In this document: piece after piece, positions 2,156 to 27,508 of the stretch
Position numbering within the stretch: position 1 is the stretch's first letter
Layout: the number at the start of each line of letters is the position of its first letter
Source of the DNA: a virus
Strand: one strand, 5' to 3'
DNA: 27,929 bases
Virus record (IMG/VR): IMGVR_UViG_3300001749_000003
Location: 1 to 27,929 of that record
Program-made: the position numbers and the translations under genes
The notes under the pieces: generated by a model
Database searches by the model: none
The model's input: only the letters and a program-made list of their open reading frames with translations
What the model was told of the DNA's origin: nothing

Positions 2156-3045
2156 ATGAAGAGTGATGTAAGTCAATCTGATGTAGTTATTTCCAAACAA
2201 TCTAATATGGCTACACTACAAGATGGCCTTACCAACCTAGCAACTGGCCTTGGTGGTACTCAAGATAAAGCTACCTTCAATCAGTGGAATCACTCTGGAC
2301 GTAATTTTGATCATGTTACCCTATCAGCACGCTATCGTGAATGCTGGTTAAGCCAGAAAGTTTGTAAGATAGTCCCACAAGATATGACTAGGGAGTGGCG
2401 CAAGTTTAACTCTAAGTTAGCTCAAGAGGCCGACAAAGAATTTGAAGTTGATAGCTTGTTCAGGGAAGCTTACAAGTGGGCTAGGTTGTACGGTACTAGT
2501 TTTATTGTACTAGATATTGATGATGGAAGAACTACAGATAAACCTGTAAATTGGAAGAGGTTAAAAGAAGGATGTTTAAGATCCATGCATGTTGTGGATA
2601 GAACTAGGATAGTAACCTTGGGTGAGATTGATCAGAAACCTATGAGTGTTACATTCGGTATGCCTGACCATTACCAATTCGTAAACACTACTACACCTAT
2701 ACATAAAGACAGGCTTATTCGTTTTGAAGGTACGGAATTGCCAATATATGAACGACAAAGAAACTTATGGTATAGTGATAGTGTATTAATACCACTTACT
2801 CAGCAAATGGATAACTTCTATGTTGCTAGTTCTGCTGCAGCTCAGATGGTATCAGAAGCAAACACCGATGTTATTAGAATACCAGATCTACAAACTATTT
2901 TAGAAAGTGATTCTGGTACTGCTGCTATGATAGCCCGCTTTCAAGGATGGAAACAAATTAAGGGTGTTTATGGTGTTTCAATACTAGATCAAGAGGAAGA
3001 GTTTGACCAGAAGAAGATACAACTTTCTGGATTGAAGGACTTGAT
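2156..3045 (+). CDS. Portal protein (DUF1073 family), exon 1
   Basis: First exon of the portal, the dodecameric ring at the capsid vertex through which DNA is packaged and ejected. The ATG follows AAGGAG at a good distance. The segment LSARYRECWLSQKVCKIVPQDMTREW near residue 60 and ARFQGWKQIKGVYGVSILDQEEEFDQKK near residue 265 match the DUF1073 portal pattern. The frame continues unspliced to a stop at 3103, but the last about 19 codons do not fit the family, while the missing family sequence resumes at 3870. I place the exon end after 3045, in phase 2 (codon AT|T), because GACTTGAT pairs with a downstream GTCAAGT as a group I P1 helix. Exon 1 plus exon 2 gives 1320 bases, 439 residues, reading LSGLKDLI-WEYLKIVAASV across the junction. 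Unspliced RNA would give a truncated, non-functional portal. Confidence 0.88.
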
Positions 3046-3869
3046 AAATAACTTGTCAAGTATAAACCCTTTTAAATCAGTGGAACCCCTAATATTAAGT
3101 TAAGGGCAATACTGAGCTATGGTGAATATCTTAGGATTAGTAACCGAAGTGCAACGACTAAATGTAACTCTCAAGGGAGCTTACAAGAGAGGCCAAGTGG
3201 CTTCGTAATTTAGGGGCATACTCAAGGTAGTATGTAAGATATAGTCTAGGCTGCATAGTAATATGTAGAAGAGTGTAAAGATGAATTATATAACAGAGTA
3301 TCGTAGCAAGAAATATTATGTGGGTAGTGTCCACGCAACAAACGATCATGGCCCACTTAAAGTTTTAGGCAGGCTTGATGATCCAAAATGTGACTTATAC
3401 GCAGTAGAATTCTTAAGTACTGGATTTAAAACTAAAGCCAGAACAAGTGGCATTGTAAAAGGCATGGTGAAAGATTATCATGTACCAGTAGTATTCAACA
3501 GGGGATTTCTAGGTACTGGTAAGCACACAACAAAGAAGAATGGAAAGACAACAAGAGAATACAAAGCATGGACAGGAATGTTCTATCGTTGTTACTCTAG
3601 TGACCCTCAACACAAAAACTATGTAAGAAGGGGTATTACTGTTGATCAAAGATGGCACAACTTTCAAATATTTTGTGATGATATAGAAAAGTTGGAAGGC
3701 TATGAAGCTTGGAAGAATGGGTTTAACATGGCACTTGACAAAGATATAAAATTTAATGGTACATATAGCAACACTAGTTGTATGTTTATAACCAAGGCCG
3801 AAAACACAAAAGAGGCCAATAATAGAAGACACTCTAGTAAGAACTAACGAATCTTGCTTAATAACACCG
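3046..3869 (+). ncRNA. Group I intron interrupting the portal gene
   Basis: About 824 bases separate two halves of one portal reading frame. Seen directly: ACTTGAT at the end of exon 1 can pair with GTCAAGT at 3055-3061, putting a U.G pair at the 5' splice site as in P1 of group I introns. GCAACGACTA at 3151-3160 and AAGATATAGTCT at 3236-3247 match the conserved P7 elements of T4-td-like introns, and GACTA/TAGTC pair exactly. The proposed intron ends in G at 3869. The endonuclease gene lies 3' of P7, in a peripheral loop of the P9 region. Splicing joins the frames exactly. The edges could be off by a few bases; the 3' site was chosen to give six residues between DLI and VAA as I recall for this family. 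Confidence 0.85.
3281..3847 (+). CDS. Intron-encoded HNH-type homing endonuclease
   Basis: A 188-residue basic protein encoded wholly inside the portal intron. The C-terminal half contains YKAWTGMFYRCYSS, then RRGITVDQRWHNFQIFCDDIE, then NGTYSNTSCMFITKAENTKEAN, the order seen in HNH-family endonucleases of phage introns (W..M..RCY, GI.V..RW..F..F, Y...NC.W.....N). The usual central His-Asn-His residues are not all obvious: DKDIKFNGTYSNTSC has the Asn-rich part but a clear first His is lacking, so it may be a variant or a weakened enzyme. Such proteins cut intronless alleles near the insertion site and drive intron spread by recombination; the expected target is the portal gene around the exon junction. 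It stops 22 bases before the 3' splice site. A clear ribosome site is not visible (GAAGAGTG lies upstream of the ATG). Confidence 0.8.
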   Translation: MNYITEYRSKKYYVGSVHATNDHGPLKVLGRLDDPKCDLYAVEFLSTGFKTKARTSGIVKGMVKDYHVPVVFNRGFLGTGKHTTKKNGKTTREYKAWTGMFYRCYSSDPQHKNYVRRGITVDQRWHNFQIFCDDIEKLEGYEAWKNGFNMALDKDIKFNGTYSNTSCMFITKAENTKEANNRRHSSKN

Positions 3870-4299
3870 TTGGGAATATTTAAAAATTGTAGCTGCCTCA
3901 GTTTCTATACCTGCTACTAGGTTCTTATCAGCTTCACCAGATGGTATGAATGCCACAGGTGAGTCAGACTTAGTAAACTATATAGAAACATTACAAGGTC
4001 TACATAAAGACATATTTGTACCAAGACTAAAAGTGGTAGATAAACTACTGGAAGCACACTTTGGATTACAAGGTGAAGATTTTGACTATGAGTGGAATTG
4101 TATTTTCCCTGAGTCAGCATCCCAGAAAGCAGATCGAATTAAGACAGAGCGTGAAAGTGTTTCTGGCTTAGTTGATTCTGGCGTAATATCTAATGAGTCT
4201 GGTCTGAATGAGTTAAAAAGGTCTGGTGCCATATCTAATGATGCTGAAGTTGGTTCTACACCAGCGCAAGCCAACAAAGACAATAAACCAGACAAATAA
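3870..4299 (+). CDS. Portal protein (DUF1073 family), exon 2
   Basis: Second exon of the portal. Read in the frame set by splicing it starts WEYLKIVAASVSIPATRFLSASPDGMNATGESD, a highly characteristic DUF1073 portal block (IPATRL.G.SP.GMNATGE.D). The ATG at 3946 is an internal methionine of this block and not a natural start: conserved portal sequence lies upstream of it and there is no ribosome site. The C terminus (SGVISNESGLNELKRSGAISNDAEVGS, then a K/D/N-rich tail) is typical of the variable portal end. It follows the intron directly and is followed after 14 bases by the protease-scaffold gene, so the head genes form one transcription unit. Confidence 0.88.
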
Positions 4300-9004: not shown

Positions 9005-9016
9005 TAAGGAATGATT

Positions 9017-10501
9017 ATGGCGATTGAAACAACTGAATTCGCTAATGTATCTATTGCAGTTTCACCAGTTGGGGTTTCTGGAGGCAACTTTGGTGTCTTA
9101 GGATTCCTAACTAATGAAGAAGGTGTTGTAGGTACTGCTGAAAGAGGAAGAGCCTATACCAGTTTAGCTAGTGTTGGTGGTGACTGGGCAAGTACTAGTG
9201 AAGTTTATAAAGCTGCAACTGCCTTCTATGCACAAACACCTACACCAACTGATTTTGTTGTATTGGTAGCATTTGAAACAAACCAAGCTGCCGTATTAAC
9301 TGGTGGTGGACATGACCAATTATCAGAGCTAGTACTGATTAATGGCACAACCAATGCTGGTAACTTTAATATTACTATTGATGGTTCTGCTGTTGCTATT
9401 TCTGACTTAGATCTGTCTTCTGCAACTGACCTTGGTGGTGTAGCTGACATATTAGAACTTGCCATTAACACTGAAAATGGATCTAATGTTTGCTCTGTTA
9501 CTCACACAGGTTTGGGCTTTGAAGTTAAGTCTTTGGTTACTGGTAGTGCATCTACAATTACATTTGCTGAAGGTACTGCTGGTGCTGGCGATGTTGATGC
9601 TGCTTCTGCATTAGGTTTAGCTCAACACCAAGGTAAGGTATCACTAGGTATTAATGCTGAAACTCCAGTAGAAGGTCTAGCTAATGCACTATCTATGGGT
9701 ATTGACTTTACTGGTTTGGTAACTCATAAGAAATACCGTGATGTTGCTGGTCAAGCTGATGGTAACAACACTGCAGATATTGCTGACTGGGCTGAAGCTG
9801 CTAAGAAGATCTTCTGTAATACTTCTAACAACTTGGCAACACTAAGTAGCGTAATTACTTCTGATATTGCCTCTGTATTAAAGAGTAAGACATTACGATT
9901 TTCACTTACAACTTTTAGTAAGAGTGTCAACGAGTACCCTTCTGCCTCTGTATTTGGCAGAGCTGCTTCTGTAAACTTCTCAGCTATTAACACAACTATT
10001 ACTTTGAACCTTAAGCAGATGCCAACTATTACTGCTGAAGATTTAACACCTGCTGAATTTGGTGTGTTACAAAGTAAAAATGCCTCTGCTGTAGTTCGTA
10101 TTGGTAAGACTGTTAATGCATACACAAGTTCACGAATGGCTTCTGGCTCATGGCTAGATACTACCCACGGTTTGCTTTGGTTAGAAAATCGCTGTGAAGT
10201 TGATATGTTTAATTTGCTATATCAATCCACAACTAAGATTCCATATACACAAACTGGTATCAACACTGCTGCAGCTACATTAGACAGATCATTGCAAGCT
10301 GCTGTAAGGAATGGTTTAGCTGGTGCAGGCTTCTTGCCAGATGGAACCTATTTGCCTGAAGGTTATCGTGTTAATGTTGTTGCTCTGGCTGATGTTGCAA
10401 GTAGCGATAAGGGTAACAGGATATACAAAGGCCTAAGCTTCGATATGGTTGGTGCAGGCGCATTACATGAAGTTGAAGTATCTGGTAGTTTCTCAGAATA
10501 A
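9017..10501 (+). CDS. Contractile tail sheath protein (DUF3383)
   Basis: 494 residues. An ATG at 9011 is in frame, but AAGGA at 9006-9010 touches it; the ATG at 9017 has a proper 6-base spacing, so I start there. The N terminus (FANVSIAVSPVGVSGGNFGVLGFLT), the middle GLVTHKKYRDVAGQADGNNTADIADWAEAAKKIFCN and the C-terminal region with LKQMPTITAEDLTPAEFGVLQSKNASAVVRIGKT and TTHGLLWLENRCEVDMFNLLYQSTTKIPYTQTGI match the DUF3383 tail sheath family. The sheath surrounds the tube and contracts during infection, which makes this a myovirus. CGN and ATT codons and its place before the tube gene agree with high expression. An internal domain (residues about 95-210, GTTNAGNFNITIDGSAVAISDLDLSSAT) resembles an added surface domain. 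Confidence 0.9.
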   Translation: MAIETTEFANVSIAVSPVGVSGGNFGVLGFLTNEEGVVGTAERGRAYTSLASVGGDWASTSEVYKAATAFYAQTPTPTDFVVLVAFETNQAAVLTGGGHDQLSELVLINGTTNAGNFNITIDGSAVAISDLDLSSATDLGGVADILELAINTENGSNVCSVTHTGLGFEVKSLVTGSASTITFAEGTAGAGDVDAASALGLAQHQGKVSLGINAETPVEGLANALSMGIDFTGLVTHKKYRDVAGQADGNNTADIADWAEAAKKIFCNTSNNLATLSSVITSDIASVLKSKTLRFSLTTFSKSVNEYPSASVFGRAASVNFSAINTTITLNLKQMPTITAEDLTPAEFGVLQSKNASAVVRIGKTVNAYTSSRMASGSWLDTTHGLLWLENRCEVDMFNLLYQSTTKIPYTQTGINTAAATLDRSLQAAVRNGLAGAGFLPDGTYLPEGYRVNVVALADVASSDKGNRIYKGLSFDMVGAGALHEVEVSGSFSE

Positions 10502-11679: not shown

Positions 11680-14600
11680 ATGAGTGACTACGATGATTAT
11701 GAAGGTTTAGAAGTATATGATAGCCCTGATGGTGGAAACATTGATGGGGAACTTGATGAAGCAGCACTATGGCTACAAGGTCAAGGTGGTGTGCTTGATG
11801 AAGATAACGACAGCCCCATATCTAGAAATATACTAGAAGGGGCAATGACTGCTGCAGACTTACAACTAGGTAGAATAAGTCACGTAGAACCAAGGATTCA
11901 AGCTGGTATTAAAGCCCTACTAAGTGGCCAAGATATTAGTGGTGTGTCTGCAGTAGATAAAGCTGCAGCCATACAACAGTTTACTAGTGAGATAGGAATA
12001 GCACCAGAAGTGTTTGCTAGTAGGATCAAGCTAGATCCATCAGTGCAAGTACCAAACTACTCTGGTGATATTAAGACAGTACTTTCCATGTTGCAAAATA
12101 CTTCTGGAGAGTACATGGTTAGGGGCCCAGGAAAAACACTACCTGGGAACTATATAGATAGTGAGAAGAGGTTAGAAGCTAATGATGATCTAACTACTGC
12201 AATTGGTTATATAACTGAGTTATCTGATTTATATATTGATGGCAGAACAAGAGGATCAAGTGTAGAACAAGCAAGAAGGAGTGCTGTTGAGGCTGGATTA
12301 GTATCTAGGCTTAGAGATGGTGTTTTCTATGATGGATCTAAGGACATATTACCACTTCCAAACGAGGTTGGTATATATGGAGAAAACACTAGAGGTGTAA
12401 CTGGTTTAGTTAGGACACAAGGAATATATGGATCAATTCAAGGTACTGCTGATGATAGGCTGTCTTCTGGCAGGTTTGATGAATACTACCAAACAAGTAA
12501 TGCTGCTGGAGAGAAGACTAGGTTTGTCCGTGATAGTAATGGAGGAAAAGTTTTTAAAAATGACGTTTCCAAGGAAGACAGAACTAGAATACTCAAAGCT
12601 ACACCATCTTTAGCCAACTCATTGTTTGCTAAACCTAAGCCAGCAAGAGGTACTAGGTTTACTCAGGAAGAAAGAGATAAACATAGTAGAGATCAAAAGT
12701 ATCTTCTTGATCAAGCTCAATACAAAGCTGAGTTTGCTAGAAAGGTACTAAGGCAACAATTCCCTACAACTAGGGATGAAAGTGCAGGCCAAATAAACAT
12801 GGCTGGCTTTGATAGACCAGTTGGCGAACAAGAAGAAATGCAAAACCTTAGAAATGAGGCTGCAATACTTGGGTTAGATTGGTCTGCAGGAGTTGATCTT
12901 GATAACGTAGGTGGTGTATCAACTAGCACACTATCAACTGAAGATGCCATGAAGGTGGGTATTTTCTCTTCAGGTGGTGTAGGATCTGACAAGTCTGGTG
13001 GGTTTGGCTATACTCAAATGTCAGATGTAGATAGGTTTATTGAAGAAGAGTTAAACCCAGAAGTGGATAATGTTGTGTCATTAAATCCTAAACAGGGAAC
13101 TCCAGAATGGTTGGCTCAACGTAGGGGTAAAATAACAGCATCAGTTATAAAAGGTATATTATTAGAAGGTGGTGTTGATGACATAGCACTACAACTAGCC
13201 AAAGAAAGGTTAGGCACTGCTGAACCATTTGAAGGTAATGCTGATACTAGGGAAGGCAACAAAGGAGAAGATAAAGTTGCTGCATCTTTCCTAGCTGGTG
13301 TTGGTAAGAACTTCACCATGGGAGAGGCACATTTTGTGTCTGGTGATCCAAAGGGATTGAAAGGTTTTGGTGTATCACCAGACGGCTGGCTAATAAACGG
13401 TGAAGGTGAAAGTGAGGGGCTAGCAGAGTTTAAACTTCTAAGTGGCAGTAGTATGAAGACTGCTGTGAAAGACTACACTAACCAGATGCAACTACAAATG
13501 GCTGTGACTGGTGAAAAGCAAGTACACTTTTATGCGCTAGACAAACATTCGGGTGAATACTTACATGAGGTAGTTAAAGAGGATGTTGACCTACAAGACA
13601 AGATAATTTCTGCTGGCAGGCAAGCAATTGATAAAGCCTCAAAGCTAGATCACATAGGAGTTCAAGCTTTGAGCAAAGATATAGAAGCCAAGAAGATGGG
13701 CCCAAGAGCACCATCAAGATCTATGACAAAAGGCCAAAATAAGTCTTTTGAGGTAACTAAGGGTGTTGTGGAGAATGTAACAGCATTTGATCCTGCAGTT
13801 GCTAATGTTGATACAGAGTTAGGTGCCGCATCTAAAACTGTTATGGCACAGAAGCTAGAAAAGTTAGATCAAGCTGAAAGACTTAAGAATGCTGTAGATA
13901 GTGCACAAGATGTTTCTGGTATGAGCAAGATCGAATCTGAACAATCAGAAACTAGACGAATGAAAGCCCAAGCAATATTTAGCAATAATAATAGAAGAGC
14001 TGGGTTTGAAGGTAATCAGCCAGATAGTGAGATGGCTAAGTACTACGAAGAAGCACAGAAGAAAGCTGCAGATGCAACTAATGAAGCTACCAACTCAGTA
14101 TCAGAGTTTGGAAAAGCAACCATGAAAGCTGTCGGTATATTATCAGAGCTTGGTGGTATGGTTATGTCTGGCAATAAGTCTGGTATGGATGAAGTACGTT
14201 TTGCTAATGAAGTTGGAATGGATGTTAGAAATGTCCGTGGTATGCGTGAATCCTTAGAGAAAGGTATGCTTAGTGACACAGGTATTAACAAAGTTATAAG
14301 TAGAGCTGGAAGTCTGGTAAACACTTTTAATAGTGAACTAGGTTTTGCTTCAGAGTACACCAACATACTAGAAGCAAGAGGTGTATCTAACTTAGAATCA
14401 GTACGTAGTATGGATATACCTAGACCTTCTGAATTGAAAGATATGAACCCACAACAAATGGTAAGCATGGTTGCTGGACTAATGGAAGGCAAAACACAAG
14501 AAGAGAAAGTCCAGATTGGTAGAATATTCGGCATGGCAGAGTTGGCTTCAAATACTGCCTCACCAATGGCAATAGATGCTGCTTATGATCTATCTATTAA

Positions 14601-15261
14601 TCAACAGAACTTAGAGGCCACTAGAGCAGGTATTGTAGATGTTGAGCAAGTTAAGAGACAAGCACTAGAACAAACTGGTGAGATAGGTTCAGTAGGCGGA
14701 TCAATTGCGACTGGTTCTGTTGTAGCTGGTGCTATTGCTGGTTCTGCAACTATGGGTTTTGTTGGTGTTAAGGCTGCCCAAATGTTATCAAGAGCTGCAC
14801 CAAGTGCTAATGCTGCTAAGATGGCCAAAAGTATGTCTGTACTTGGTAAATCTACACCACTTGCAATGGCTGCTGGCTTGGCACCTTTGGCAATAAGAGG
14901 ATTATCTGGTGTTAAAGATGATGGTACTGTTGGTGATTCTGCATTAGACATTATGGAGTTTGCTGGCTATGGAGCTGCTTTAGGATCAGTAATTCCTGGG
15001 GCTGGCACTTTGTTAGGTGCTGGTTTTGGAACTGCTTTAGGTATTGGTAATGAGGTAATGGAATACTTTGAAAGTGATCCGTTGCCAGATCCTAACATAG
15101 GTGAAATGAGGCAGACACATGGCCCTAAAGATAAAGAGAAGAATATAGTGAATGTAGAAGTTACTAATGAAATATCAAGAGATCTTATTAGAACTACTAC
15201 AGATGTTAATGGTGATCTAAATGTAGATGAAGAGTCTGGAATAGGAACTGGAGATAGCTGA
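11680..15261 (+). CDS. Tape measure protein with embedded YqaJ-like nuclease domain
   Basis: 1193 residues, located between chaperone and hub genes; this place, the long charged helical stretches, the hydrophobic C-terminal segments (about 1004-1035 and 1094-1125) and the terminal NIVNVEVTNEISRDLIRTTTD block identify a tape measure. It would set a tail of roughly 180 nm at 0.15 nm per residue if all of it counted. Residues about 465-660 form a separate domain of the YqaJ / lambda-exonuclease nuclease family: KQGTPEWLAQRRGKITAS (472 on), REGNKGEDKVA, GFGVSPDGW with D568, AEFK with E583 and K585, and NQMQLQMAVTG with Q602-Q606. The D...ExK plus QxxLQ pattern is intact, so the domain may be active. 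The N-terminal 465 residues match nothing I know. Most Arg codons are AGA/AGG. The tape measure enters the cell with DNA, so a nuclease could be delivered early. ATG follows GGAG. Confidence 0.85.
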   Translation: MSDYDDYEGLEVYDSPDGGNIDGELDEAALWLQGQGGVLDEDNDSPISRNILEGAMTAADLQLGRISHVEPRIQAGIKALLSGQDISGVSAVDKAAAIQQFTSEIGIAPEVFASRIKLDPSVQVPNYSGDIKTVLSMLQNTSGEYMVRGPGKTLPGNYIDSEKRLEANDDLTTAIGYITELSDLYIDGRTRGSSVEQARRSAVEAGLVSRLRDGVFYDGSKDILPLPNEVGIYGENTRGVTGLVRTQGIYGSIQGTADDRLSSGRFDEYYQTSNAAGEKTRFVRDSNGGKVFKNDVSKEDRTRILKATPSLANSLFAKPKPARGTRFTQEERDKHSRDQKYLLDQAQYKAEFARKVLRQQFPTTRDESAGQINMAGFDRPVGEQEEMQNLRNEAAILGLDWSAGVDLDNVGGVSTSTLSTEDAMKVGIFSSGGVGSDKSGGFGYTQMSDVDRFIEEELNPEVDNVVSLNPKQGTPEWLAQRRGKITASVIKGILLEGGVDDIALQLAKERLGTAEPFEGNADTREGNKGEDKVAASFLAGVGKNFTMGEAHFVSGDPKGLKGFGVSPDGWLINGEGESEGLAEFKLLSGSSMKTAVKDYTNQMQLQMAVTGEKQVHFYALDKHSGEYLHEVVKEDVDLQDKIISAGRQAIDKASKLDHIGVQALSKDIEAKKMGPRAPSRSMTKGQNKSFEVTKGVVENVTAFDPAVANVDTELGAASKTVMAQKLEKLDQAERLKNAVDSAQDVSGMSKIESEQSETRRMKAQAIFSNNNRRAGFEGNQPDSEMAKYYEEAQKKAADATNEATNSVSEFGKATMKAVGILSELGGMVMSGNKSGMDEVRFANEVGMDVRNVRGMRESLEKGMLSDTGINKVISRAGSLVNTFNSELGFASEYTNILEARGVSNLESVRSMDIPRPSELKDMNPQQMVSMVAGLMEGKTQEEKVQIGRIFGMAELASNTASPMAIDAAYDLSINQQNLEATRAGIVDVEQVKRQALEQTGEIGSVGGSIATGSVVAGAIAGSATMGFVGVKAAQMLSRAAPSANAAKMAKSMSVLGKSTPLAMAAGLAPLAIRGLSGVKDDGTVGDSALDIMEFAGYGAALGSVIPGAGTLLGAGFGTALGIGNEVMEYFESDPLPDPNIGEMRQTHGPKDKEKNIVNVEVTNEISRDLIRTTTDVNGDLNVDEESGIGTGDS

Positions 15262-18203: not shown

Positions 18204-18563
18204 ATGACAATACAGATTGCACTAGATCCAGCAACTAATGATATAGTTAAGCTAGATAGTGGTGGAATAGCCAGAGTCAAAGAGGGGCAATATACAGTAC
18301 AGCTAGTAAAGAATAGGCTTAAAACACAGTTGGGTGAGTGGTTGCTGGATCCAACTGTAGGCTGGCTAAACTTTGATGTCTTTGAAAGGAATCCAGACTT
18401 GTTTAATATAGAGCTTAAGGCTAGGCAAATTATATTATCTACCCATGGAGTTCAGGCTATTGAGAGTTTAAGTACAGAGCTAGTAAGTAGAACACTACTG
18501 CTTAGTTTTGTAGCAACAACTATATATGGCGGTATAGAAGTAACTATACCTTGGAGTTTATAA
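18204..18563 (+). CDS. Baseplate wedge protein, gp25/W-like (DUF2634)
   Basis: 119 residues. The pattern MTIQIALDPATNDIVKLDSGGIARVKEGQYTVQLVKNRLKTQLGEWLLDPTVGWLNFDVF, followed by an amphipathic alpha/beta end (EVTIPWSL), is typical of the gp25-like family (lysozyme-like fold without activity) that anchors the sheath to the baseplate. AGGAG precedes the ATG and its stop TAA overlaps the start of the J-like gene (TAATG). Confidence 0.85.
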   Translation: MTIQIALDPATNDIVKLDSGGIARVKEGQYTVQLVKNRLKTQLGEWLLDPTVGWLNFDVFERNPDLFNIELKARQIILSTHGVQAIESLSTELVSRTLLLSFVATTIYGGIEVTIPWSL

Positions 18564-19714
18564 TGGCAGGATTAACAAGAGAGGGGTTTATCCCACTCAA
18601 TTATGATGAAATAGTTACTAGAATTAGTGACAGATTAGAAGTATTCAGCTCTGGGATTGATCTAAGTCCAGAATCACCAGATGGCCAATTAGTAAATATT
18701 GTTGCATTTGAGTTATCTCAAGTATGGAATGAGTTAGGTTTGGTATATAATAGTTATAATCCAGACCTAGCAACTGGCGATGGTTTGCGTAACATAGGTT
18801 TAATATCTGGCATTGCTTATGGTGCCGCAACTAGATCTGTAGTAACCAACGAATTGTTAGGTGTGGCAGGCACAATAGTTCCAAAGGGTACAATATTTAC
18901 AGACAGTTTAGGTAATGAGTTTGAGACAGAGCTAGATGCAACAGTTCCATCATCAGTGACATCTACCGCAACATTGTCAGGCTCTACTGCAGTGCCACCA
19001 AATACTGTGATTGTTATTAAGTCACCTATAACTGGGCTAACATCTATAACACAAACTACAAATGGCAAGCAGGGTTCAGAAGCACAGACAGAAGCAGCTT
19101 ATAGAAATGAGCGAAATAAGACTGTACTTAGAAACTTTGTAGGTGTAGAAAGTACTATCCAAGCTAGGTTGTTTGAAACACTTGGAATAGATCAAGTAGC
19201 TGTTATCAATAATGATAACCCAAACAGTGCACTACCAGATGGCACACCAGCACAAACTATTCATGTTACAGTTGGTGAACTAAATGGAGTTACTGATGAA
19301 GAGATAGGCCAAGTGATACTGACCACTAAAGGCCTAGGTTGTCCTACCTTTGGATCAACTTCTGTAACTGTTCAAGATGCACAAGGGGAAGACCATACGA
19401 TAAATTTTAGTAAGGCAGTGGCCAAGCAAGTGTTTGTAAATGTCACAGTAACTTTCTTAGATAACGACTTCGCTGGTGCTAGTGATGCAATAGCAGTTGA
19501 TCTACAAACTCACATAAATAGTTTACTTACAGATGAAGATGTTGTTTGGTCAAGGCTGTTTGGTATTGTAACGCCTTATGCTAAGGCCCAAGTAGATCTG
19601 CTAGAACTTAGTACTGATGGAGTTACATACTCTGCAGGCAACCTAGTGGTTGGTTCTGGTGAGTATGCATCTACAACACTTGGACAAATACAAATAACTG
19701 TTACTAATAGTTAG
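18563..19714 (+). CDS. Baseplate protein J-like
   Basis: 383 residues from the ATG at 18563, which overlaps the previous stop (TAATG) and has GGAG six bases upstream; a TTG at 18551 in frame is an artefact. The sequence GLTREGFIPLNYDEIVTRISDRLEVFSSGIDLSPESPDGQLVNIVAFELSQVWNELGLVYNS and the block GSEAQTEAAYRNERNKTVLRNFVGVESTIQARLFETLGIDQVAVINN match the baseplate J / Mu gp47-like family. It builds the wedge ring around the hub and holds the tail fibres. The C-terminal part is beta-rich. The order gp25-like, J-like, DUF2612 is the standard baseplate order. Confidence 0.88.
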   Translation: MAGLTREGFIPLNYDEIVTRISDRLEVFSSGIDLSPESPDGQLVNIVAFELSQVWNELGLVYNSYNPDLATGDGLRNIGLISGIAYGAATRSVVTNELLGVAGTIVPKGTIFTDSLGNEFETELDATVPSSVTSTATLSGSTAVPPNTVIVIKSPITGLTSITQTTNGKQGSEAQTEAAYRNERNKTVLRNFVGVESTIQARLFETLGIDQVAVINNDNPNSALPDGTPAQTIHVTVGELNGVTDEEIGQVILTTKGLGCPTFGSTSVTVQDAQGEDHTINFSKAVAKQVFVNVTVTFLDNDFAGASDAIAVDLQTHINSLLTDEDVVWSRLFGIVTPYAKAQVDLLELSTDGVTYSAGNLVVGSGEYASTTLGQIQITVTNS

Positions 19715-23328: not shown

Positions 23329-23360
23329 AAACATCTTAGTTGGATTGTATAGTATATAAA

Positions 23361-23388
23361 TTGATCTAGGTAGTTGTGTAGTTATAAA
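23361..23388 (+). promoter_or_regulatory. Sigma70-like promoter in repeat unit 1
   Basis: TTGATC (23361-23366), 16 bases, TATAAA (23383-23388). Compared with TTGACA-17-TATAAT this has four and five matches. The same arrangement occurs in units 3 and 4, but unit 2 has lost 8 bases of the spacer. Host RNA polymerase could start early transcription of the phage polymerase here. AT-rich DNA makes chance matches common, but the threefold conservation of spacing is suggestive. Confidence 0.45.
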
Positions 23389-23465
23389 ATATTATATATG
23401 TTGGATAGTATATAAATTGATCTAGGTAGTTATAAATATTATATAATATATATATAGTACATAAA

Positions 23466-23493
23466 TTGATCTAGGTAGTTGTGTAGTTATAAA
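23466..23493 (+). promoter_or_regulatory. Sigma70-like promoter in repeat unit 3
   Basis: TTGATC (23466-23471), 16 bases, TATAAA (23488-23493), identical to the site in unit 1. About 200 bases ahead of the polymerase ATG. Confidence 0.42.
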
Positions 23494-23521
23494 ATATTAT
23501 ATATGTTGGATAGTATATAAA

Positions 23522-23549
23522 TTGATCTAAGTAGTTGTGTAGCTATAAA
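23522..23549 (+). promoter_or_regulatory. Sigma70-like promoter in repeat unit 4
   Basis: TTGATC (23522-23527), 16 bases, TATAAA (23544-23549). The closest of the three sites to the polymerase gene, about 140 bases upstream of its ATG, leaving a G-rich leader. Confidence 0.42.
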
Positions 23550-23690
23550 ATATTATATATGTTGGATGTGCGTGGGGTGCTTAGGGATGTTGGTGTGTTA
23601 AGGAGTCTCTTTGCCTTTTCGATTATATGTCGAGTTGGTTTGTGATAACTTGAACACTAATGTAATTAACCTAAACTAAAAGGATCTATC

Positions 23691-25643
23691 ATGCCTAATG
23701 TAATTGCTAACTTAATCAAATCTTCCACAACAACTGAGGTAACAACAATGTCCAACACAACTAAGCAAGAAGCAATCAACTTAAATAACATCAACAAGTC
23801 AGCTTTAGTATCAACAATGGCTGCTGAACTGTTTATTCAAGGCTTAAGTGAAAGAGTAAGTATGATAACTGCTGTTGCATTTATTGGTGCAATTGATTAT
23901 CTTGATGATTATGAAGACTTTTCAGAAGCTTTTATAGAAGGTATGGAAATCACCTCACTAGAGATAGTCGGGCTAAATGAACAGCCAGAGTGTGACATAG
24001 ATGGTGAGTTGGTAGAGAGTATACTTCAAGCTGCCAAGTACCTAGATGGTGAGTCAGTTGGGCCTAGGTTGTATGAGTTATGTGAACTTAGGTCTGAGGC
24101 TTATGAACCAACTACAGGTGAGATAGTTAGAAGGTTTGGCTATTCTAAAGTTAAACACTCTGAGTTGTTTATCGAAGCTATCCATGCTCTTGAAGCAACT
24201 GAGTATACAGTTGATATAGATATATTATCAATTGCATTGCAAGTACAAGGTAAGCTTGGCAAGGATAACGATGAAGAGTCTTATGTTATTAGTGGTTGTC
24301 AAAACATGAATCCTGAGTTGGCTTACAAGTCAGAGTTCAAGGGTGACAGAAGAGGAAGAATGTATCAAGCTGCTTGTCATGGGCCTAATGGTCAATCTTC
24401 TGATAGATCAAGAGCACTTATGAATCTTCAAGGTGTTCCAACTGACTACGATGTTGTTACAGTTAAGAAGCATATCTTAGCTGAGATAGAAGACATGGTA
24501 GCTTCTCCAAAGGATAGTGCCAAGGAGTTAAGAGAGTTGGGTGATGTAGAGTTTATCATCAAGCACCTAGATAGTGATGTAGTTAAGAAGCCTTGGAGTT
24601 TTGTTAAGGCTGCCAAGATCATGCGTGAGTTACAAGCAGGTAACAAGCCCTACATTGGTATGGCTGTAGGTTTAGATGCTAAATGTTCTGGGCCTCAGTT
24701 AGGTGCCTTAATGGTTGGTGATCAACAGATTGCTGCTGCTTGTGGTTTCACCATGACTGAGTTAGATGATGCCTATCATTTGTCTTTGGTAGAACTAGCT
24801 AGGGCTGGCTTTACTAACATAACCAGAAATGGTATCAAGAAGGCATACATGGGTGTGTTCTATGGTCAAGGTTGGGCTGCATTTACTGACCTTGAGGAGA
24901 TAGGTTCTGAGCTAGCTAACTCACTTTATGGTGAGGGAATGCCAGCTAATGATGATACAGCTAAGATGTTCCACAAAGCCTTAGTTGCATCATTTGGTCA
25001 GAAGATGATAGCTGTACGTAACTTGTTTAAGTCATACGCCAAAACTACTAAAGGTCGCACTTTACATAGTATGCCTGATGGGTTTGAAGTAGCCATGAAC
25101 TACAAAGTCAAGACTAACATCTTGGGTGAGATCATGGAGTATGACACAGAACAATACGATGTAAGACTACGTAATAATGCTGAGTCTTATAAGTTTATCA
25201 ACTTCCAACTTAAGACCTTGGATGTGCATGAGGGTGACTTTGCTAGAAATGGGTTTGTTAATATGATCCAAGCTACAGATGCACTTATAGCTAGGTTGAT
25301 AGTAGTTCACCTTAAGAGATTAGGTGCTAAGCATATCATATCAGTACATGACTGCTTTCGAGTTAATGTTACTGAGATGCACTTGCTTGAAGAAGCTATC
25401 AAGTTATCATACATGGATCTATTTGGATCTGAGTACAATAACTCAACTAGTGACTTACCACTAGGAACTGACATACTTGGTTTGTACTTTAAAGGAGCCA
25501 ACAAGCAGTTAATAGAAGGAGAAGAAGAAGTTATGGTTAGTCAGTTCTTCAGCTCTGGTAAAAGAAGACTACGTAAGATCAATAGTGTAAAAGTTGTAGA
25601 TCTTATTAGTAGCCTAGGTGATACTTATTACTTCGCTAAGTAG
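23691..25643 (+). CDS. T7-like single-subunit DNA-directed RNA polymerase
   Basis: 650 residues. All core motifs of the T7 RNA polymerase family are present: FKGDRRGRMYQ with D219-R223 (DxxGR motif), GLDAKCSGPQ with catalytic D329 (motif A), RNGIKKAYMGVFYG with R379, K383, Y391 and G392 at exactly the T7 spacing (R627, K631, Y639, G640; motif B), and SVHDCFRV with H553 and catalytic D554 (motif C). About 170 residues separate motifs B and C, enough for a promoter-specificity loop. It is shorter than T7 polymerase (883 residues): the part before DxxGR is about 200 residues shorter, so the N-terminal promoter-melting domain is reduced or different. ATG follows AAAAGGAT. Upstream repeats carry sigma70-like sites; downstream lie five candidate promoters for the enzyme itself. 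The C terminus ends YYFAK, loosely like the aromatic T7 foot. Such enzymes are best known from podoviruses. Confidence 0.9.
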   Translation: MPNVIANLIKSSTTTEVTTMSNTTKQEAINLNNINKSALVSTMAAELFIQGLSERVSMITAVAFIGAIDYLDDYEDFSEAFIEGMEITSLEIVGLNEQPECDIDGELVESILQAAKYLDGESVGPRLYELCELRSEAYEPTTGEIVRRFGYSKVKHSELFIEAIHALEATEYTVDIDILSIALQVQGKLGKDNDEESYVISGCQNMNPELAYKSEFKGDRRGRMYQAACHGPNGQSSDRSRALMNLQGVPTDYDVVTVKKHILAEIEDMVASPKDSAKELRELGDVEFIIKHLDSDVVKKPWSFVKAAKIMRELQAGNKPYIGMAVGLDAKCSGPQLGALMVGDQQIAAACGFTMTELDDAYHLSLVELARAGFTNITRNGIKKAYMGVFYGQGWAAFTDLEEIGSELANSLYGEGMPANDDTAKMFHKALVASFGQKMIAVRNLFKSYAKTTKGRTLHSMPDGFEVAMNYKVKTNILGEIMEYDTEQYDVRLRNNAESYKFINFQLKTLDVHEGDFARNGFVNMIQATDALIARLIVVHLKRLGAKHIISVHDCFRVNVTEMHLLEEAIKLSYMDLFGSEYNNSTSDLPLGTDILGLYFKGANKQLIEGEEEVMVSQFFSSGKRRLRKINSVKVVDLISSLGDTYYFAK

Positions 25644-25658
25644 TAGTTAGTATCTAGT

Positions 25659-25684
25659 TAGCCAGCTATTAAGTTAGCTGGCTA
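25659..25684 (+). terminator. Hairpin after the RNA polymerase gene
   Basis: TAGCCAGCT (25659-25667) and AGCTGGCTA (25676-25684) form a perfect 9-bp stem with an 8-base loop ATTAAGTT, sixteen bases after the stop codon. It is followed by CTATCCCTCTT, which has only short T runs, so termination may be partial. It overlaps a TATCTAGTTAG element like those in the repeat block further on. Confidence 0.65.
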
Positions 25685-25847
25685 CTATCCCTCTTAAGTA
25701 TATAAAGCCACAAGTCTGTAGTGTTCCAGAGACTTAAGGAACTAGTAAGAAGAGTAAGTGGTGACTATAACTAAGATCAAGACCACAACAGGTTCAAGAG
25801 CATAATCGTTCGTACCTCACTTCAGTTCAAAAGATAAGATCAAGACC

Positions 25848-25870
25848 AATATAGATCCTTTCTAGGTAGA
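25848..25870 (+). promoter_or_regulatory. Candidate phage RNA polymerase promoter P1
   Basis: Core TATAGATCCTTTCTAGGTAG; start expected at the first G of CTAGG (25865). Ends like T7-class promoters (…CTATAGGGAGA). First of five copies, in the first unit of a 63-bp duplication. Confidence 0.6.
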
Positions 25871-25910
25871 GTATGTAGAAATACATAACACCAAAGATAA
25901 GATCAAGACC

Positions 25911-25933
25911 AATATAGATCCTTTCTAGGCAGA
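25911..25933 (+). promoter_or_regulatory. Candidate phage RNA polymerase promoter P2
   Basis: Core TATAGATCCTTTCTAGGCAG, start expected at 25928. Differs from P1 by one base within the core; it lies in the second unit of the duplication. Confidence 0.6.
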
Positions 25934-25993
25934 CTATGTAGAAATGCATAATGCCAGAGAAGGGTCAGAGGTATAGACCACAAAGGTCAAATC

Positions 25994-26016
25994 CATTTAG
26001 ATCTTCTCTAGGGAGA
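25994..26016 (+). promoter_or_regulatory. Candidate phage RNA polymerase promoter P3
   Basis: Core TTTAGATCTTCTCTAGGGAG, start expected at 26011. The end CTAGGGAGA is the closest of the set to the T7/K11 start CTATAGGGAGA, and ATTTAG at its 5' end recalls SP6 and K11 promoters. The surrounding sequence is not part of the 63-bp duplication, so the motif is conserved independently. Confidence 0.62.
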
Positions 26017-26071
26017 TTAGTTAAGGTAATAGACAAATAGCAGCCACTTGATTGTGAGCTTGATGGTTATT

Positions 26072-26094
26072 ACTTTGACTTCATTCTAGGGAGG
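26072..26094 (+). promoter_or_regulatory. Candidate phage RNA polymerase promoter P4
   Basis: Core TTTGACTTCATTCTAGGGAG, start expected at 26089. It keeps TTCTAGGGAG but departs from TAGATCC upstream, so it is the weakest copy. Like P3 it is followed by TAGTTAAG. Confidence 0.45.
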
Positions 26095-26159
26095 GTAGTT
26101 AAGATCTAGGTCTGTTGGAATATTAGTGTATAGACCTAAGGTAGTTAGTTACAAGTTAG

Positions 26160-26203
26160 TATCTAGTTAGTATCTAGTTAGTATCTAGTTAGTATCTAGT
26201 TAA
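26160..26203. repeat. Four 11-bp TATCTAGTTAG repeats
   Basis: Three exact copies (26160-26170, 26171-26181, 26182-26192) and a fourth ending TTAA (26193-26203). The same 11-mer also occurs at 25651-25661, next to the polymerase stop. The 11-bp period places each copy on about the same helix face. Confidence 0.9.
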
Positions 26204-26343
26204 TAAGTTATGCCAGACAGGAATCGCTAGTGTAGGATTAGAGCTTGGCTACTTACTTAATAGTATCAATAGGTTATGATAGTCTTCGACAGTATCTAGA
26301 TAGTGGCTAGATAGTGGCTGGCTAATAACTTGACGTGGGAGAG

Positions 26344-26492
26344 GGCTAGTTAGTGTTGGGTTAGGCTAGTTAGTGGCTAGTTAGTGTTGGGTTAGTGGCT
26401 AGTTAGTGGCTAGTTAGTGACTAGTTAGAGTTGGATTAGGCTAGTTAGTGGGCGATGGGTCTAGTTAGTGTTGAGGTATGGGCTAGTTAGTA
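26344..26492. repeat. Helically phased GGCTAGTTAGTG array
   Basis: Exact copies start at 26344, 26364, 26375, 26397, 26408 and 26439; one- or two-base variants start at 26419, 26459 and 26481. Distances are 20, 11, 22, 11, 11, 20, 20 and 22, all close to whole helical turns (137 bp over 13 turns, 10.5 bp each). The array looks like a set of protein-binding sites on one face of DNA. Confidence 0.85.
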
Positions 26493-26511
26493 GACTGGAG
26501 GGTGTAGGTTG

Positions 26512-26638
26512 TTAGGCACCCGAGACACTTACTTAGTCAATATCAAGTACTTACTTAGTCAATATCAAGTACTTACTTAGTCAATATCAAGTACTTACTT
26601 AGTCAATATCAAGTACTTACTTAGGCACCCGAGACACT
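26512..26638. repeat. Four 22-bp iterons between 18-bp direct repeats
   Basis: TTAGGCACCCGAGACACT occurs exactly at 26512-26529 and 26621-26638. Between them are TACTTAG and four identical 22-bp units (26537-26558, 26559-26580, 26581-26602, 26603-26624), each containing TCAATATC, the palindrome AAGTACTT and ACTTAG. The unit length equals two helical turns, as in iterons of replication origins. No spacers are present, so it is not CRISPR. A variant (TACTTACTTAATAGTATCAATA) lies near 26250. Confidence 0.9.
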
Positions 26639-26961
26639 AGTTACGCACCTATTAAGCTATCATAGTATATAGATCTACCTAGCTTTAATTAGCAACTATT
26701 TAGCTTTAAGTAGTCTTATCAGTAACTTAGTAAGTTATTAGTAAGCTACGAGTTAGTCCTAAGTTAGACTGAGTTAGATATTTAGACTTAGTAGTATATT
26801 AGTAAGTTGGCTTTAAGCTAGATGCCAGTAATCATAGTTATACCTAGTTAGACCTAGTTAGAGATCTTTCTTTCTGGTCTAATAGTTATAGAGCTAAGTG
26901 TTATCAGCTAATAATTGTTAGTTGATACTAGTTAGCTCTAAGTAGCACTGAGTAGAAAACC

Positions 26962-26984
26962 GTTATAGATCCTTTCTAGGCACA
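26962..26984 (+). promoter_or_regulatory. Candidate phage RNA polymerase promoter P5
   Basis: Core TATAGATCCTTTCTAGGCAC, start expected at 26979, about 110 bases before the next gene (27092). Identical to P1/P2 over 16 bases in unrelated surroundings almost 900 bases away, which argues for a functional site and places it as the promoter of the downstream small genes. Confidence 0.65.
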
Positions 26985-27091
26985 ATAGGTTAGGGATGGA
27001 TCACCTAAGAAACAAACGATCCACTTTAAATCATTTAACAATTTTAATAACTGGTAAGCAGAAGCTGCCATAACTTATAGAGAGAAATACT

Positions 27092-27508
27092 ATGTCAATC
27101 TTAAACAAACTAAGCACACTTACTAAAGTTAATTCTGAGACAGCACCCAAGCGTGTTGCGATGACTGAAACACAAGTTAAGCAGTGCAAAGCAGCAATCA
27201 CACGAGACAATCGTGGTTATAATGTACATCCTAATAAGTTCGATATTGCTGTACCATACCGAGTTGCTGTAAATTTTAACAACGAGTGGTTTGGCTATGG
27301 TAACTTTACCAGTGCTGATGTTGCTGCTGCTGTAGGTGCTATCGTATCGTCTGCTTACTTTGGTGATGATGCTGTTATTGGATCTTTTGACAGTGAAGTA
27401 GTAGAAGGCCATGAGGAATTCCAAAGCTGGTTAGCAAACTCAGAAAATGCTGATGTTATTGCTAAAGCTAACCAAGAAAACACAGTAGATGATAGTGCTC
27501 CGTTCTAA
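27092..27508 (+). CDS. Unknown small protein with SSB-like acidic tail
   Basis: 138 residues. Not recognised. A basic, Thr/Lys-rich N terminus (MSILNKLSTLTKVNSETAPKR) is followed by a compact region with IAVPYRVAVNFNNEWFGYGNF, SADVAAAVGAIVSSAYFGDDAVIGSF and an acidic C-terminal part ending TVDDSAPF. The last residues resemble the DDDIPF tip of single-stranded DNA-binding proteins, which recruits partner enzymes; the body does not look like a standard OB fold, so this may be only a resemblance. The gene lies about 110 bases after candidate promoter P5, has AGAGAG before the ATG and a strong terminator behind it, so it is probably a highly transcribed single gene. CGT/CGA arginine codons support good expression. 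Confidence 0.68.
   Translation: MSILNKLSTLTKVNSETAPKRVAMTETQVKQCKAAITRDNRGYNVHPNKFDIAVPYRVAVNFNNEWFGYGNFTSADVAAAVGAIVSSAYFGDDAVIGSFDSEVVEGHEEFQSWLANSENADVIAKANQENTVDDSAPF

Follow-up and report, generated by a model that had tools for sequence, protein, structure and literature searches.

The occurrence of a compact T7-like single-subunit RNA polymerase (ssRNAP) beside the genes of a contractile tail raises the questions of which phage lineage carries such an enzyme and how a polymerase with a reduced N-terminal domain would open its promoters. We addressed these questions in a stretch of 27,929 nucleotides (the window; positions 1 to 27,929 of IMG/VR record IMGVR_UViG_3300001749_000003) and in the whole record of 56,534 bp, which amounts to 53.85 kb of non-redundant sequence after removal of a 2,688-bp end overlap. 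The polymerase, here called RNAP1, is encoded as follows:

23691..25643, + strand: RNAP1, chasevirus-type ssRNAP, 650 aa, ATG start (motifs, PHROG, AlphaFold model)

The open reading frame spans exactly these coordinates, in agreement with the length of 650 residues given in the original prediction, and the opposite strand is closed across it. The translation contains DxxGR (D219-RRGRMY), motif A (D329-AKCSG), motif B (R379-xxx-K383-xxx-M387-xxx-Y391-G392) and motif C (H553-D554), including the catalytic Asp, Lys, Tyr and Asp of ssRNAPs, and the spacing of motif B is that of T7 (R627/K631/M635/Y639/G640), as had been predicted. Profiles were needed to place the protein, since the single sequence stayed below the Pfam cut-off and a phmmer search of the PDB was uninformative; RNAP1 matches the PHROG RNA polymerase family at 6e-29. 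The best structural match of an AlphaFold model built from 44 aligned sequences (pLDDT 86.6) is T7 RNAP (Z 31.7, 450 residues). Residues 1-28 are disordered, and residues ~485-506, which correspond to the specificity loop of T7, form strands in the model. The PHROG match, the model and the presence of the gene in dozens of relatives indicate that RNAP1 is not a chance reading frame.

RNAP1 has the T7 fold and motifs, but DxxGR is preceded by 218 residues as compared with 420 in T7 (motif at 219 versus 421), which bears out the predicted deficit of about 200. A profile alignment pairs residue 157 of RNAP1 with residue 313 of T7, so that the loss amounts to ~156 residues of the N-domain and ~46 residues of the thumb region that precedes DxxGR. 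The predicted reduction of the N-terminal domain is therefore real, but promoter-binding N-domain accounts for only some of what is missing. A recent deletion peculiar to this phage was considered and rejected, because DxxGR lies at 195-290 in nearly all relatives with an intact motif (most at 199-246); within the clade of RNAP1 described below it lies at 199-260 where intact. In this polymerase family the reduced N-domain is ancestral and does not reflect a recent loss. The ordered N-domain alone (residues 27-214) had no match among known folds at E<=0.001 in Foldseek, and the N-domain residues folded alone were without a clear match in the PDB.

Sheath, tube, baseplate hub, spike, wedge and fibre genes are all encoded in the window, and RNAP1 does stand beside a complete contractile tail, as the original prediction had it; with sheath and baseplate genes present, this is not the podovirus structure of Autographiviridae. 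Two of the tail loci are:

9011..10501, + strand: tail sheath (PHROG 205, E=1.4e-89; 34% identical to the PP101 sheath)
18204..19714, + strand: baseplate wedge genes, gp25- and gp6-like (PHROG 120 and 6)

The combination of a compact T7-type RNAP and a contractile tail has reportedly been known since phiEcoM-GJ1 (2008), a member of Chaseviridae. It is not the anomaly it had been taken for, since Chaseviridae share the gene, its compact form and the genome order. The strong matches of RNAP1 in a tblastn search of 50,697 phage records are Chaseviridae, which the literature presents as myoviruses that encode a T7-like RNAP (PMC12842549, PMC6872899, PMC6989608). In Cleopatravirinae, a well-described myovirus clade of the kind that the original prediction had itself named as refuting it, the polymerase layout is the same: the RNAPs are 631-648 aa long, DxxGR lies near residue 218, and the gene is the first of a collinear genome. 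The RNAPs of Nefertitivirinae have 718-845 aa. The RNAPs of phiEcoM-GJ1 (gp1), 4HA13, PP101 and Myduc are likewise compact, with DxxGR near 218, and are first genes, as RNAP1 probably is. RNAP1 is nevertheless only 21-27% identical to chasevirus RNAPs.

The phylogeny, which comprised 45 polymerases, places RNAP1 in a clade of 16 rows (support 100/100), all members of which are IMG/VR virus contigs. Its sister is a clade of 23 rows containing both chasevirus subfamilies, and together they form a clade of 39 rows (100/99) that leaves T7, SP6, phiKMV and N4 outside; RNAP1 falls in neither Cleopatravirinae nor Nefertitivirinae. The genome as a whole is collinear with 4HA13 and PP101, its non-redundant length is within the Chaseviridae range of 52-56 kb, and identity to one or the other of these phages is 50% for TerL, 48% for the portal, 44% for the major head protein and 43% for the DNA polymerase. 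The genes are unidirectional, with the contractile-tail genes in chasevirus order and a large ssRNAP at the left end, accompanied by DNA polymerase and primase/helicase; chaseviruses also have a non-coding gap after the RNAP gene and a similar end element. Judged from these sequence comparisons, the phage is a sister lineage of Chaseviridae, outside both named subfamilies.

Several other genes deserve mention. The portal gene is split into 2156-3103 and 3946-4299 by a group I intron at window positions 3015-3945 (Rfam RF00028, 63 bits), which contains an ORF for an HNH endonuclease at 3281-3847. The large terminase gene (genome 50640-52112; L006:5640-7112) is also interrupted, by a segment that carries an ORF of 302 aa for an HNH endonuclease of the same family, and Rfam called no intron there at its cut-off. 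A protein of 1193 aa in the tape-measure position (window 11680-15261) includes, at residues 465-650, a domain like the RecE exonuclease (PHROG 434, E=1.6e-15).

Two features precede the RNAP1 gene:

23600..23619, + strand: AAGGAGTCTCTTTGCCTTTT, probable left genome terminus or packaging-cut element, 89-91 nt before the RNAP1 start
23345..23567, + strand: four 56-bp A+T-rich tandem repeats, each with ATTGATCTA(G/A)GTAGTT, left of the presumed genome end

The element AAGGAGTCTCTTTGCCTTTT is found upstream of RNAP1 in 13 loci of the clade (the window and 12 others) and is unique in the genome, where the next best site has 6 mismatches, as compared with best values of 4-7 in random genomes. It resembles the first ~35 nt of the PhageTerm-opened chasevirus genomes Myduc (..AGGAGTCCCATAACCTTTTCGATTT), 4HA13 and Mangalitsa (both TTAAA(A)TACGGTCCCTAC..CAACTTTTTC). 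This likeness to mapped left ends suggests that the RNAP1 gene probably enters the cell before all others, and it would probably lie, together with its candidate promoters, inside a terminal repeat. The direct terminal repeats of Chaseviridae, of ~3 kb, start before the RNAP gene, and in Myduc the RNAP gene is in the terminal repeat (PMC6872899); what the present genome shows before RNAP1 is the end-like element at 23600. The contig itself ends elsewhere than 23600. Its 2,688-bp end overlap is unlikely to be a true terminal repeat, given 6 mismatches and a location in the terminase-portal region, and looks like an assembly overlap. The 56-bp repeats are overlapped by host-promoter-like hexamers and score < 6 bits with the promoter matrix described below; they carry degenerate promoter-like ATTGATCTAGGTAGTT, and similar CTAGGTAGTT sites occur before RNAP1 in relatives.

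The RNAP1 gene is followed by a long non-coding gap with a repeated motif, TnnAGATCCTTTCTAGGTAGAGTA and variants, which occurs five times in the window, always in this gap:

25644..27091, + strand: non-coding gap of 1.45 kb (1,448 bp) holding all five candidate RNAP1 promoters
25843..25874, + strand: candidate promoter 1, AGACCAATATAGATCCTTTCTAGGTAGAGTAT, 29.4 bits (matrix scan)
25906..25937, + strand: candidate promoter 2, 23.8 bits (matrix scan)
25989..26020, + strand: candidate promoter 3, 19.9 bits (matrix scan)
26067..26098, + strand: candidate promoter 4, 26.0 bits (matrix scan)
26957..26988, + strand: candidate promoter 5, 18.3 bits (matrix scan), ~100 nt before the first downstream gene
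27092..27508, + strand: first gene after the promoters, 138 aa, with an acidic end DDSAPF like an SSB tail

The layout of the candidate promoters is a T/A-rich stretch followed by TTCTAGGnAGnGTA. As the motif was first spotted by eye in the window and one relative, only a scan that leaves the window out constitutes an independent test. We therefore trained the matrix on 8 other loci, with the window excluded, and scanned the whole 56-kb genome on both strands. The five gap sites rank first to fifth genome-wide (18.3-29.4 bits), and the next site scores 10.7; the best score over 40 shuffled genomes was 18.6, slightly above the weakest window site at 18.3. The motif is present at the corresponding place in relatives (L004/L020, L021 with six copies, L022, L023, L024, L026, L027, L019 and G009). 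Counts of its short form, T[CA]TAGGnA[GC], over 11 loci are 30 for the coding strand of the gap, where 2.6 are expected, and 2 for the opposite strand, and the density is 23-fold above that elsewhere. L031 and G016 belong to a sub-clade whose sites have TATAGG, like TATAGGGAGA, the initiation part of the T7 phi promoter, to which T(C/A)TAGGnAGnG corresponds in the RNAP1 clade. We conclude that the gap motif is probably an ssRNAP promoter, with the start, on the analogy of T7, at the first G after CTA.

For comparison, chasevirus promoters were listed by ICTV as not yet identified in 2022 (PMC12842549), and the authors of PP101 hypothesised eight promoters (PMC6989608). A candidate motif of Cleopatravirinae, CATTAGTTG(G/C)ATGTGAA, is annotated in GJ1 and recurs in ST32, Y2 and Faunus. 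This promoter-like motif (CATTAGTTGnATGTGAA) differs from that of the RNAP1 clade, and none of this type was noticed in the gaps of the clade. T7 promoters are dispersed over the genome of a podovirus, whereas here a single cluster is found in a phage with a contractile tail, and late-gene expression is consequently not explained by these candidates alone. Between promoters 4 and 5 (window 26142-26624) there are short tandem repeats of 11, 22 and 33 bp with CTAGTTAGT and ACTTACTTAGTCAATATCAAGT units, and chasevirus gaps after the RNAP gene (L053, L054, L046, L047) contain many GCATGTAATATTGTGACAATATTG palindromic elements.

The TTCTAGG repeats could instead be packaging, terminal-repeat or replication signals. 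They lie in a region that is terminally repeated in chaseviruses and in which repeats are common, and chaseviruses carry AATATTGTGACAATATT palindromes in the corresponding gap. Yet the sites have one orientation only, toward the genes, and an initiation-like GG followed by purines; the T7-like TATAGG of the two relatives is what drifting polymerase-promoter pairs would give, and a separate conserved end-like element exists. We consider such signals a distinctly improbable explanation.

A second alternative concerns promoter opening itself. N4 RNAPII (673 aa; gp15/gp16, Schitoviridae) is another known minimal ssRNAP whose N-domain and thumb are truncated, in the same way as those of RNAP1, and cofactors are needed by most characterised T7-like RNAPs (PMC4496689). 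RNAP1 might likewise be too short to open double-stranded promoters alone, and an ssDNA-binding cofactor, for example the product of the 138-aa gene at 27092 with its SSB-like end, would recruit it to single-stranded or pre-melted DNA, the repeated motif being a site for the cofactor or a replication origin. N4 RNAPII is also the nearest polymerase outside the clade in a joint tree, on a long branch. On the other hand, the conserved element of ~23-27 bp with T7-like T[CA]TAGGnAG exceeds the short A+T-rich site of N4 RNAPII (-7 to +2), RNAP1 has the equivalent of the T7 specificity loop, and the 138-aa protein has no family match. Furthermore, N4 RNAPII is split into two subunits encoded by two genes and needs gp2 for specificity, whereas RNAP1 is one open reading frame; a fusion of the N4 RNAPII type was rejected, as profile comparison gave no significant match to gp15. 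We regard the N4-like mode as rather doubtful. Given the candidate promoters in the gap, RNAP1 is likely to use a T7-like double-stranded promoter as its substrate and not, like N4 RNAPII, single-stranded DNA only.

The genome differs from those of Chaseviridae, which have only one ssRNAP, in encoding two:

genome 47897-49741 (L006:2897-4741), outside the window: RNAP2, second compact ssRNAP, 614 aa (PHROG 414, E=2e-68; Pfam RNA_pol, E=5.5e-41)

The RNAP2 gene is located between those for DNA ligase and terminase. The protein has DxxGR at residue 210 and keeps D316, R371, K375, Y383, H547, D548 and the His that corresponds to H784 of T7, and its catalytic residues are invariant among six aligned homologues. 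Its profile scores are 125 bits with T7 and 126 bits with mitochondrial RNAP, and the best named phage match is VSW-3 (28% identity). In the joint tree RNAP2 groups with T7, SP6, phiKMV and VSW-3 (99/94) and RNAP1 with Chaseviridae (100/100), so the two are only distant relatives and do not represent a recent duplication. Among 24 records searched, RNAP2 is present at 49-54% identity in 4/4 full-length clade genomes (G009, G010, G012, G016), in the 52.5-kb G013 and the fragments G011 and G015, and at ~40% identity in G018/G019 on the chasevirus side, and is absent from PM1, 4HA13, GJ1 and Spp001; absence from short contigs carries no meaning. In 21 further records, mostly complete chasevirus genomes, the profile gave weak matches only, nearly all at the known RNAP gene, and overall RNAP2 is absent from about 25 chasevirus genomes. 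The simplest history, as read from this distribution, would be presence in the common ancestor followed by loss in Chaseviridae; the basal position of G018 in the RNAP tree is weakly supported (92/78).

It could be argued that RNAP1 is an ordinary chasevirus RNAP and RNAP2 a decaying or non-transcribing relic, for instance a primer-making enzyme for replication, given that one ssRNAP suffices for chaseviruses and that several relatives have substitutions in RNAP2 (Ser or Ala for the Gly of DxxGR, Asn or Ser for the Gly after the Tyr of motif B). However, the retention of every catalytic residue, full length and identity of 49-54% across the clade argue that RNAP2 is under selection, and we find the relic reading unlikely. 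Intergenic sequence from five genomes was inspected for RNAP2 promoters and showed no repeated motif. Directly after RNAP2, five relatives have a conserved, apparently structured element whose core, CGTTACYAYCCCGC...AGGGAGAG, is flanked by arms that vary yet stay complementary (L074:3350-3430, L075:3355-3465, L077:3365-3470 and the end of RNAP2 in L073 and L076); it has no Rfam match, and the genome studied here may have a diverged form of it after RNAP2.

Taken together, we think it probable that RNAP1 is the early ssRNAP of a chasevirus-like myovirus, reading the gap promoters rightward, with RNAP2 acting later. By the logic of chaseviruses and T7, the RNAP1 gene would probably enter the cell first, as part of a long terminal repeat like that of Chaseviridae, and would first be transcribed by host RNA polymerase; RNAP1 would then recognise the approximately five T7-like promoters that stand in tandem directly after its gene and carry transcription to the right, into early and replication genes that all point the same way. 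RNAP2 probably serves a later stage, a guess based on the position of its gene next to terminase. A fuller version, in which RNAP1, of chasevirus type, would act early and middle and RNAP2, from the T7/mitochondrial side of the tree, late in a two-ssRNAP cascade, RNAP2 being ancestral and lost in Chaseviridae, and in which the clade would be intermediate between the one-polymerase strategy of T7-like phages and the multi-polymerase strategy of N4-like phages, is put forward only tentatively. In a search of 5.39 million open papers, the phages with two ssRNAPs were only N4-like and phiKZ-like cases, and no report was found of myoviruses whose two ssRNAPs differ in ancestry.

The RNAP1 clade supplies a clear, testable family of T7-like candidate promoters for a polymerase ~230 residues shorter than that of T7. 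With polymerase and candidate promoters together, promoter opening by a reduced N-domain becomes directly testable, and a compact orthogonal transcription pair is on offer. The conservation of RNAP2 indicates that some myoviruses outside the N4 group keep two T7-type polymerases.
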